Source: Natronorubrum halophilum
GTDB lineage: Archaea; Halobacteriota; Halobacteria; Halobacteriales; Natrialbaceae
Assembly (NCBI RefSeq): GCF_003670115.1
Contig: NZ_QQTY01000004.1
Coordinates: 434,001-498,000 of the forward strand
Direction: 5' to 3'
Length of the DNA: 64,000 nt
The translations under genes and the position numbers were made by a program. Positions 28,025 to 31,579 of the stretch are shown one piece after another; position 1 is the stretch's first letter, and each line of letters starts with the position of its first letter. The notes under the pieces are model-generated. The model saw nothing but the letters and a program-made list of their open reading frames with translations, made no database searches and had not been told where the DNA came from.

Positions 28025-29125
28025 CTATCTGCAGCTACTGCTCAACTCGGCCGACTCGAGGTCGTCGTCGAACGCAGCGGCGACGCCGTAGGCGATCTCC
28101 TTCCAGTACGCTCGCCGGGTCGCGTAGCTCTGCGAGACGAAGATACTGTCGTCGCCCAGACGGTTGCTCAACATCGCGTCGGCGGTTCCCTTCGGTTCGT
28201 CGGGAAGCTCCGCCTCGACCGCACAGGGCGGTAGTGCTGCGTTGATCGAGTCGCGGACCGCCGCACGGAGCGTCTCGTCGGCAGTGCCGCCGATATCGAT
28301 TCCCGCCTCGCAGACGCCGCCGAAGTCGACTGAAACGTCGAAGTCGGTGTCGGCGATCCGGTCGAGTTTGGGGAACGATGCCGGAGAGAGTTCGGTCGAT
28401 GGGACGTACCAGCGGCGGAACGCCCCGGCGGCGGGGGTCGGCCCCCATCCGAGCGCCCGCCAGCTGGTCGCCGAAACGAGTTCGCTCGCGTAGGCTGCCT
28501 GTTCGTCGGTCCGGGGCTGCATTCCGCCGCCGTGTGGGGCGATCATGACGAGCGAACTGTCGCGCTCGTCGAGCTGTTCGATGAGTTCGCCCTGATCGCG
28601 CGCCTCCGGAACCGAGAGGTCGGCGGTCGGAATCGTCGTCGAGATGGCCGCTTCGAACTCGTCGTCCAGCGAATGCTCGCTCCGCGGGTCGGGACAGCTA
28701 TTCAGGGAGTCCGACGAGGGCTCGACCTGGGAGCCGAGATCGAGTCGGGACTTCGCGCTGTCCGCCATGCGAACGATATCGTCGGGTGCTTCCGGTCGGT
28801 CTTCGGCGACCGTGTACACCGAGAATTCGTCTGTTCTGTCGATTCGGACCTGCTGGCCGACCGAGAGATTCCTGGCGTCGAGGAGCCTCGGATCGGCCGA
28901 AATCGCCGTCCGGCTGTCGACGATATCGTCCTGTCCATCAGCTGGTTTGCATATGAGGCCGGTATCGTACGCTCCGTTACCGTCATAACGCGATACCGCC
29001 TCGTAGCTCCCGACGCCGAGCCCGAGCAGTGCGGGCGAGGCGAGGGCAACCCCGAGGAACTTTCGTCGCGACGATCGGGAACTGGTCTGTTCGTCAGTGT
29101 CGTTGTCAGTGGTTTCGTCTGTCAT
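28025..29125 (-). CDS. Tat-exported poly-gamma-glutamate hydrolase-like protein with altered metal site
   Basis: 366 residues: Tat signal SSRRKFLGVALASPALLG, then a domain of the DUF867/PghP family, zinc-dependent gamma-polyglutamate hydrolases with a carboxypeptidase-like fold. The family signature is recognisable as VMIAPHGGGMQPRTDEQA (about residues 191-208). From memory, PghP binds zinc through His and Glu in HGGGIE and a later His in a SFHG-like segment. Here the Glu is Gln, and the later segment reads VDFGGVCEAGIDIGG (about 264) with no His. The product may therefore bind rather than cut the polymer. Its gene overlaps pgsB by 4 bases, so its link to poly-gamma-glutamate is strong; its activity is uncertain. 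Confidence 0.75.
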   Translation of the reverse strand: MTDETTDNDTDEQTSSRSSRRKFLGVALASPALLGLGVGSYEAVSRYDGNGAYDTGLICKPADGQDDIVDSRTAISADPRLLDARNLSVGQQVRIDRTDEFSVYTVAEDRPEAPDDIVRMADSAKSRLDLGSQVEPSSDSLNSCPDPRSEHSLDDEFEAAISTTIPTADLSVPEARDQGELIEQLDERDSSLVMIAPHGGGMQPRTDEQAAYASELVSATSWRALGWGPTPAAGAFRRWYVPSTELSPASFPKLDRIADTDFDVSVDFGGVCEAGIDIGGTADETLRAAVRDSINAALPPCAVEAELPDEPKGTADAMLSNRLGDDSIFVSQSYATRRAYWKEIAYGVAAAFDDDLESAELSSSCR

Positions 29126-30411
29126 TGATGTGGGGCGATTGGATGTTCATCCGCTGTAGTCGTGTTCCGACTCTCCGAACCGTCCTCCGATTGGAGGGAC
29201 AGTTGCGGCGAGTCGAGCTGTTCGCTATCGGGTTCGGTGTGCTCGCGCTGTTCGACCGCCTCGTTCCGCCGCTGAATCTCGTCGTCGAGATCTCGCATGA
29301 ACGCTGCAACCGTGTTCCCCATGATGAGAAGCGGACAGCCGTCGGCGACTGCATCGTCGAGAACGTCGCCTGCGTCTTCAGCTTCCTCGTCGTGGACGAT
29401 GACCGGGAAACTGGTCTTCTCGGCGAACAGGTCCGCGTGGCCGCCAGCGACGCGCGCTTGATCGATCGCACCCTGATCGGCGAGCGACTCGAGATAGTCG
29501 CGGAACGAGGCGGTTCGAGCGCGGCGGTCGCGACGCAGGTAGACGAACGGCTGGATCACCTCGTCGTCGTCGACCAGCGACTGCCTGACGAGTTCCGTAC
29601 TCTCGACGTCGTTGACGTCGGCGGCGTTGAACACTCGTCCGCCGGGAATCGACTTCCAGTCGACGCGGAACTCCTCTAGCATGTCGTCGATCGCGCGATC
29701 CGACAGCGGCGGCTCGTCGATCGCCTCGAGGACGTTGTTGATGCCGTACACCGTCTCCGCACCCGGTAAGTCGCTGTGTTCGTCCGGAACGTCGACGTGA
29801 GAGATCGTCGCGCCGACCGTCTCGAGTTCGCGCTCGAGATACGCCTGTAGCCGCGGGTCCTGCTCGCCGCTGACGACGTGGGTTCCCTCGGGGGTCGCCC
29901 TGGCGAACGCGCGAGCGATGTCGGCGCGACTGCCGCCGAGCGTATCGCGGTGATCCTGACGAACGTTCGTCACGACGAGGACGTCGGGCTTCCCGAACGT
30001 CTCGTTCATCATCCGCGTCGTATAGTCCGTAATGCCCTGATTCTCGAGAATCAGCGCGTCCACGGGCGTATACTTGCGGAGTTCGCGAACGTTCTCGTAG
30101 AGCGTGACGCGCTCGCCGCGACTGATCTCGTTTTCCGTGCCGTCGTACAACGACAGCGGGTGGTTGCCGGTTATCTTCGCGTAGGCGTCGTACCCGCGGG
30201 ACCGAAGGACGTCGTACAACCGTTCGGTCGTACCGGACTTCCCGCGTGTCCCCGAGACGACGATGCGGACATCGATCTCTTCTAACCGTTGGCGGTGGTT
30301 ACCGCCGCGGTTGAACGGTTTTGTGAGTCGCTTTGCGATTCGTGTAAGCGGTTCAGTCACTGGTGGTTTCGGGTTGGGATATGACATCGGAGGAGAGTTA
30401 GGTATGTTCAT
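29122..30411 (-). CDS. pgsB: Poly-gamma-glutamate synthase subunit PgsB/CapB
   Basis: A Mur-ligase-like amide ligase that activates and joins glutamate with ATP. The 429-residue protein has the P-loop variant VVSGTRGKSGTTERLY (about residues 51-66), then YAKITGNHPLSLYDG and the conserved LILENQGI, DVLVVTNVRQDHRDTLG and INNVLEAI; PVIVHDEEAEDAG precedes an acidic C-terminal extension not needed for catalysis. It overlaps pgsC by 14 bases and the hydrolase-like gene by 4. It acts at the inner face of the membrane with PgsC. Confidence 0.9.
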   Translation of the reverse strand: MNIPNSPPMSYPNPKPPVTEPLTRIAKRLTKPFNRGGNHRQRLEEIDVRIVVSGTRGKSGTTERLYDVLRSRGYDAYAKITGNHPLSLYDGTENEISRGERVTLYENVRELRKYTPVDALILENQGITDYTTRMMNETFGKPDVLVVTNVRQDHRDTLGGSRADIARAFARATPEGTHVVSGEQDPRLQAYLERELETVGATISHVDVPDEHSDLPGAETVYGINNVLEAIDEPPLSDRAIDDMLEEFRVDWKSIPGGRVFNAADVNDVESTELVRQSLVDDDEVIQPFVYLRRDRRARTASFRDYLESLADQGAIDQARVAGGHADLFAEKTSFPVIVHDEEAEDAGDVLDDAVADGCPLLIMGNTVAAFMRDLDDEIQRRNEAVEQREHTEPDSEQLDSPQLSLQSEDGSESRNTTTADEHPIAPHQ

Positions 30412-31579
30412 GCGATCTGATACGTCGACGTTCCGTTGCGCTCGGTCGACGTCGTTCGAGTCGGATCGCAGTGATCGCGCCGGCGGTGATCGCGGCGGTG
30501 ATCGCGGTAGCTGCGACGCCGAGCTCGATGAGGCCTATGTCGACGAGTAATCCCGCCTCTGCCGGGGTAACCAGCAGTCCCAGGATGCCGAGGAAGAGGA
30601 CGAACGCGCACGCGGAGAGCGCGATCGACGTCGATCGGTGTTTCGGCGGCATCCGGTGGAGGTTGTACGCACCGATTCCGACCAGAATCGCCGTGAAGAA
30701 CAGGTGAAGCCCGGTAGTCACCGGTGCGACGATCGCGATCGGTATGGAACCGGCGACCGAAATCGCCAGTCCGGTTGCGAGCAACACCCGTCCGTACAGG
30801 AGCGTCCGGCGGTGAATCTGCGTGATCAACCAGTAGACGACTGCGAGTCCGACGACGTACAGCGGGAGCACCGAAGCCGACTGGAGCGTGAACAACGCCA
30901 GCAACGGTAAGGCGATGATTCCGTTGAGTCTGATCCCCCAGCGAAGATACACGCCCTCGGAGACGATCATCCCGACGAGGGTGGCGCCGAGAATCAACGA
31001 GAGCGATGCGTCGAGGGAGAACGTCGTTCCTCCCACTGCCGCCTGCTGGAGTGCAGCGATGTCAGAGCCATCACTGTACAACACCGGTGGCGTGTGGTGA
31101 CCGAGGTGTGGGGCCAGGCTGAGATTGACGAGCCCGGCACCAAGCCCGATCAGGCCGACCAGCGTCGCGGCGCTCAACAAGACGTCTTCCCGGCGTCGGT
31201 CCGAGTCGAGTTGATGGTAGTTGTACGCCGCCACGCCTGGGAGAATACTCCACACGAACGTGACGTCGGTGAACGTGAGTCCGGGGATACCGGCCAGCGT
31301 GAGTCCACCGAGAACGCCGAGCGGGACGATCATACTGATCCCCATGCTCGCCAGCAGAAGCTGACGCCCGAACAGGAAGGTTCGGCGCTGGAGAACCGTC
31401 AGACCGACGTAAGCGGCTACGGTGCCGAGTATGAACGCCGGAACCGCCACGAAATCGTACAGCGCGTACACTGCAAATAGCGGCACGACGAGAACTCCGG
31501 AGAGTCGAAGTCCGTACCACTGGACGATTCCGATTCCGATCAATAGTCCGAGTACTGTCAGTATCGCGGCAATGATCAT
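30398..31579 (-). CDS. pgsC: Double-length PgsC/CapC-like membrane protein
   Basis: 393 residues, about ten to twelve predicted helices, against about 150 for bacterial PgsC. The protein is an internal duplication. One unit has IGIVQWYGLRLSGVLVVPL and LQRRTFLFGRQLLLASMG (residues about 17-85). The second has EGVYLRWGIRLNGIIALPL and IHRRTLLYGRVLLATGLAI (about 210-280). Each unit matches the PgsC pattern of a Gly/Leu-rich helix and an Arg-Arg-Thr-Leu-x-Gly-Arg turn. It is the first gene of the operon. A fused pair could replace a homodimer of PgsC in the synthase. Confidence 0.8.
   Translation of the reverse strand: MIIAAILTVLGLLIGIGIVQWYGLRLSGVLVVPLFAVYALYDFVAVPAFILGTVAAYVGLTVLQRRTFLFGRQLLLASMGISMIVPLGVLGGLTLAGIPGLTFTDVTFVWSILPGVAAYNYHQLDSDRRREDVLLSAATLVGLIGLGAGLVNLSLAPHLGHHTPPVLYSDGSDIAALQQAAVGGTTFSLDASLSLILGATLVGMIVSEGVYLRWGIRLNGIIALPLLALFTLQSASVLPLYVVGLAVVYWLITQIHRRTLLYGRVLLATGLAISVAGSIPIAIVAPVTTGLHLFFTAILVGIGAYNLHRMPPKHRSTSIALSACAFVLFLGILGLLVTPAEAGLLVDIGLIELGVAATAITAAITAGAITAIRLERRRPSATERRRIRSHEHT

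Follow-up and report, generated by a model that had tools for sequence, protein, structure and literature searches.

What is a relative of the poly-gamma-glutamate (PGA) hydrolases doing directly behind a PGA ligase gene, when the residues such an enzyme uses for cutting have been replaced? The question is raised by a three-gene operon within a 64,000-nucleotide stretch of the Natronorubrum halophilum genome (contig NZ_QQTY01000004.1), referred to here as the window. On the minus strand, in the order PgsC, PgsB, and a hydrolase-like third gene, the operon occupies the same coordinates as in a first-pass annotation made from the letters of the DNA (Table 1). That annotation described the third protein as a dead hydrolase; by all sequence signs it is indeed catalytically dead, and it is conserved in the PgsC-PgsB operon. 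The annotation had also described two gene overlaps. The 4-base overlap between PgsB and the third gene recurs in related loci (L103, L104, and L051), whereas the 14-base overlap between PgsC and PgsB holds only if translation of PgsB begins at its first ATG. In several close homologues the start corresponds to Met9 (30387) instead, which would leave a gap of ~10 bases to PgsC, and Met9 may be the true PgsB start. In Natrialbaceae, locus synteny places the operon between conserved neighbors, which we take to be homologues of rnz, an rfc-like gene, and a DUF460-type gene. A GTDB scan with one pattern retrieved the operon type from haloarchaea only, and a 295-genome sample of the phylum contained none outside this group. 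The open-access literature, outside which most subscription papers lie, yielded no earlier description of a dead hydrolase in a PgsBC operon.

Table 1. Features of the operon and of the hydrolase-like third protein (window coordinates)
Feature	Position	Strand	Basis
Double PgsC/CapC-like membrane protein, 393 aa, two homologous halves	30398..31579	-	Pfam PF14102 and HHalign
PgsB/CapB-like polyglutamate ligase, Mur-ligase fold, intact, 429 aa	29122..30411	-	TIGR04012, conserved P-loop
Tat-exported PGA-hydrolase-like pseudoenzyme (predicted), 366 aa	28025..29125	-	Weak Pfam PF05908 match, model and Foldseek, site table
Tat signal SRRKFLG and hydrophobic stretch, without lipobox Cys or clear cleavage site	28991..29125	-	Sequence
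N-terminal domain (aa 54-128), double-psi beta-barrel-like	28742..28966	-	Foldseek, DPBB domains, TM(target) 0.74-0.78
Operon-clade-specific insert (aa 134-160) with Cys144	28646..28726	-	Missing from all paralogs
Hydrolase-fold domain (aa 180-352)	28070..28588	-	pLDDT mostly >90; Foldseek
Gln203, where PghL has zinc ligand Glu46	28517..28519	-	Site table
Gly269 (FGG), where PghL has zinc ligand His102	28319..28321	-	Site table
Ser331, where PghL has catalytic Glu165	28133..28135	-	Lost in every operon-type member
Arg337, equivalent to the polymer-anchoring Arg171 of PghL, invariant	28115..28117	-	Site table; function from PMC6506827

The two synthase components were compared with existing profiles. 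PgsC matches the Pfam CapC model (PF14102) with an E value of 1.1e-31 and 110 bits (cutoff, 27) over two stretches, and its halves align with each other at an HHalign probability of 99.7 and 28% identity, in agreement with the two internal PgsC copies reported by the first-pass annotation. Fusion of PgsC as a special trait of this operon was ruled out: a double PgsC of ~380 to 410 aa adjoins nearly every haloarchaeal PgsB examined, and the fused form is therefore ordinary for haloarchaea. A 2015 survey did not find PgsC in archaea (PMC4497714), an absence for which this doubled, divergent form may account. PgsB, annotated as full length and found to be so, matches TIGR04012 (E = 3.5e-25, under the bacterial cutoff of that model), carries an intact nucleotide site with the P-loop GTRGKS, and keeps all columns that are 95% conserved among haloarchaeal PgsB proteins. 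Another, longer type of haloarchaeal PgsB (~520 to 560 aa) occurs at L064, L066, L069, L075, and similar loci. There, pgsC is often immediately preceded by a gene of ~130 aa, which in L075 encodes a response regulator, and a transposase-like gene lies downstream in some of them (L066). In one genome (L063:7743-8942), a GCS2 gene of the glutamate-cysteine-ligase family follows pgsB.

The third protein scores below the gathering cutoff of the Pfam model Gamma_PGA_hydro (PF05908; E = 0.0013, 18.7 bits, cutoff 22), and all 16 operon-type members match this model at an E value of ≤0.1. A PDB search with the single window sequence returned no match; one with the family profile did. In the AlphaFold2 model (mean pLDDT of 79, with a confident core), the predicted structure shows a hydrolase fold of the PghP/PghL type (MEROPS M86): the best PDB matches by Foldseek are PghP, PghL, and the PM1 phage hydrolase, with a TM(target) of 0.62 to 0.67 to 3a9l/5onj/21dc. 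Besides the fold, the protein shares with PghP and PghL (YndL; PF05908, M86) the APHGG motif with its first zinc His and the residue corresponding to Arg171. It differs from them in its placement in a synthase operon and in the addition of a Tat signal, a beta-barrel N-terminal domain, and a Cys-bearing insert. The twin arginines of the Tat signal are invariant in sequence set A1, and the N terminus is probably a membrane anchor. Most haloarchaeal paralogs share the sequence of the N-terminal domain region. Cys144, in the insert, and Cys272, which follows the position of the lost His102 by three residues, are both present in 19 of 21 sequences and both absent from the same 2, which are close relatives; it is reasonable to suppose that the two form a disulfide that fastens the insert to the rim of the former active site.

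What has been lost from that site can be read against the PghL structure, in which His41, Glu46, and His102 bind zinc, Glu165 is catalytic, and Arg171 anchors the polymer (PMC6506827). Alanine substitutions at the PghP equivalents of the metal positions and of Glu165 damage activity, and Arg171Ser in PghL abolishes cleavage (PMC6506827). The Gln and FGG that the first-pass annotation saw in place of a zinc-ligand Glu and His were recovered as Glu46 to Gln203 and His102 to Gly269. What it overlooked was the main loss, that of the catalytic Glu165 (now Ser331), together with changes of Asn151 to Met318 and His77 to Tyr240 (PghL numbering). The observation is correct and goes further than the annotation had it. 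The first zinc His is kept as His198 (His41 in PghL) and is nearly invariant.

To compare homologues, we separated those that immediately follow PgsB from the rest, with gene position as the only criterion. The former gave 28 intact rows, or 23 loci after records of the same genome were merged. In every one of these rows Glu165 and Asn151 are absent and Arg171 is kept, whereas all 22 of the other haloarchaeal homologues keep His41, Glu46, His77, His102, Asn151, Glu165, and Arg171. The zinc ligands are lost in many operon-type members: Gln replaces Glu46 in 21/28 rows, and His102 is absent from 14/28. Substrate-contact positions are altered as well (Asn151, Thr79, and, in many members, His77). 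Members such as those from Halomarina oriensis and Halobium salinum still have His-Glu-His and lack Glu165, which suggests that the catalytic Glu was lost first and that the zinc site decayed later. In the branch without His102, the same strand bears an Asp two positions before the lost ligand (Asp267; VDFGG, VDFSG, or VDCSG; window positions 28319-28327), a possible compensation.

In a tree of hydrolase homologues, the operon type forms one clade (support, 100/100) with one label change. The catalytic Glu is missing throughout this clade, most simply through one loss at its base, and zinc ligands have been lost in some of its branches. In the PgsB tree, 22 of the 25 members of one clade with moderate support (82/83) carry the dead hydrolase; the three label changes are consistent with a single gain plus two losses. 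Genome groupings agree between the two trees, and dN/dS between close pairs of the third gene ranges from 0.05 to 0.27. Because the operon type forms one clade, branches congruently with PgsB, and has dN/dS values in this range, the third gene is best described as maintained rather than decaying, that is, as a predicted pseudoenzyme held under purifying selection directly behind pgsB. PgsBC operons without the dead hydrolase also exist in Natrialbaceae (L057 and L062). At L061:3985-6640 (genome G050), which is one of the losses, the operon is decaying: PgsC is split, and the PgsB frame runs into a 38-residue third-gene remnant. In Halostagnicola sp. A56 (L106:6833-8096), a frameshift or an assembly error has divided the third gene between two reading frames.

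The reading we favor, with modest confidence, is that of a haloarchaeal PgsB-PgsC poly-gamma-L-glutamate synthase with an exported, noncutting accessory protein that binds the emerging chain. PgsB would make the chain inside the cell, and the double PgsC would pass it through the membrane. Outside, the Tat-exported, membrane-tethered pseudo-hydrolase would hold the chain in its old substrate groove by means of Arg337, without cutting it, and this holding could aid its release, keep it at the cell surface, or support processivity. Against this reading stand the altered substrate contacts, the Natrialbaceae PgsBC operons that lack the protein, and a second PgsB locus in the reported producer Natrialba aegyptia. 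Cutting would fall to separate, intact paralogs. Two homologues in which the active site is complete are encoded in the window's genome, one on this contig at a distance of ~80 kb and one on another contig, and a division of labor in which the dead copy holds and the live copy cuts can be envisaged. In ~11 genomes (L047, L048, L050 to L055, L058, L105, and L108), a complete-site hydrolase adjoins the operon, often on the opposite strand.

How far this accessory might stand in for PgsA is a separate matter. Bacterial PgsBCA/CapBCA systems likewise combine adjacent PgsB and PgsC with an exported third protein; here, by contrast, PgsC is doubled and its gene comes first, the third protein is unrelated to PgsA/CapA, and the genome has no PF09587 match. 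The capBC loci of Haloquadratum walsbyi, compared by description only, are alike in their haloarchaeal capC and capB genes, and the available part of that description mentions no pseudo-hydrolase (PMC1544339). The first-pass annotation had proposed a three-part synthase without PgsA, in which the dead hydrolase replaces it. The absence of PgsA held up: a PgsA/CapA profile search (PF09587) of the window's genome gave 0 matches, with control genomes positive, and the same profile found no match in the draft genome of Natrialba aegyptia DSM 13077, in Halostagnicola A56, or in six further genomes with the operon type. The replacement was not supported. Among 54 PgsB genomes, CapA occurs in 10/17 with the dead hydrolase and in 25/37 without it (p = 0.55), and with this lack of anticorrelation a PgsA replacement cannot be read from gene distribution. 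The haloarchaeal survey for PgsC-PgsB-hydrolase loci without PgsA, from which the annotation had sought support, lent it none, as 10 of the 17 carriers also have CapA.

That the dead hydrolase took over an essential PgsA/CapA role as third synthase subunit is, in our estimate, unlikely. Its third position in the operon, its export in the manner of PgsA, and the PF09587-negative carriers listed above speak for such a takeover, but CapA and the dead hydrolase lie side by side in three of the loci examined, and 12 PgsB genomes have neither. Because of these 12, PgsBC without PgsA must be regarded as common in haloarchaea; CapA without PgsB is common too (119/239). In Bacillus, moreover, the need for PgsA in PGA synthesis is disputed, and in B. 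subtilis pgsBC by itself can suffice for the synthesis of L-rich PGA (PMC6029982); there may therefore be no PgsA role to fill. Slightly less doubtful, and still tentative, is the proposal that the pseudo-hydrolase is an obligatory subunit of a PgsA-less synthase with double PgsC and PgsB, clamping the nascent chain and setting its length or its surface attachment.

Other readings depart further from chain holding. A rebuilt active site with changed catalysis, such as transfer or a different hydrolysis, might be argued from the near invariance of His198, the Asp267 gained where His102 is missing, and the Cys272 conserved at the rim, but no residue has become fixed at the Glu165 position, where Gly, Ser, and Ala all occur, and the ligand positions vary between members, which makes this account improbable. 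We give even less credence to a role in immunity or as a decoy, in which the protein would compete for the capsule with hydrolases from viruses or other cells. Retention of Arg171 and the frequency of intact hydrolases in the same and neighboring genomes would suit such a role, but scans of viral contigs with the A1 and A2 patterns detected no related hydrolase or viral homologue of the third protein, and the gene's strict association with pgsB hints at a synthetic function. Finally, a decaying, functionless third gene could point to the few relatives in which it is broken (the split frame of L106) or deleted (the remnant of L061), but the gene is intact in 23 loci with stable linkage, and its dN/dS values and conservation rule out the pseudogene reading, leaving it a negligible probability.

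Natrialba aegyptia, a reported maker of >1,000-kDa L-PGA (PMC3815933), carries the dead-hydrolase operon type plus a second PgsB locus, and either of the two may be the source of its polymer. This reported natural maker of very long L-PGA has a PgsBC-type operon with a predicted dead hydrolase and, in its draft genome, no detectable PgsA. The positions that distinguish the dead hydrolases from the live ones are clear, and the role of a noncutting, polymer-binding subunit can therefore be tested directly.
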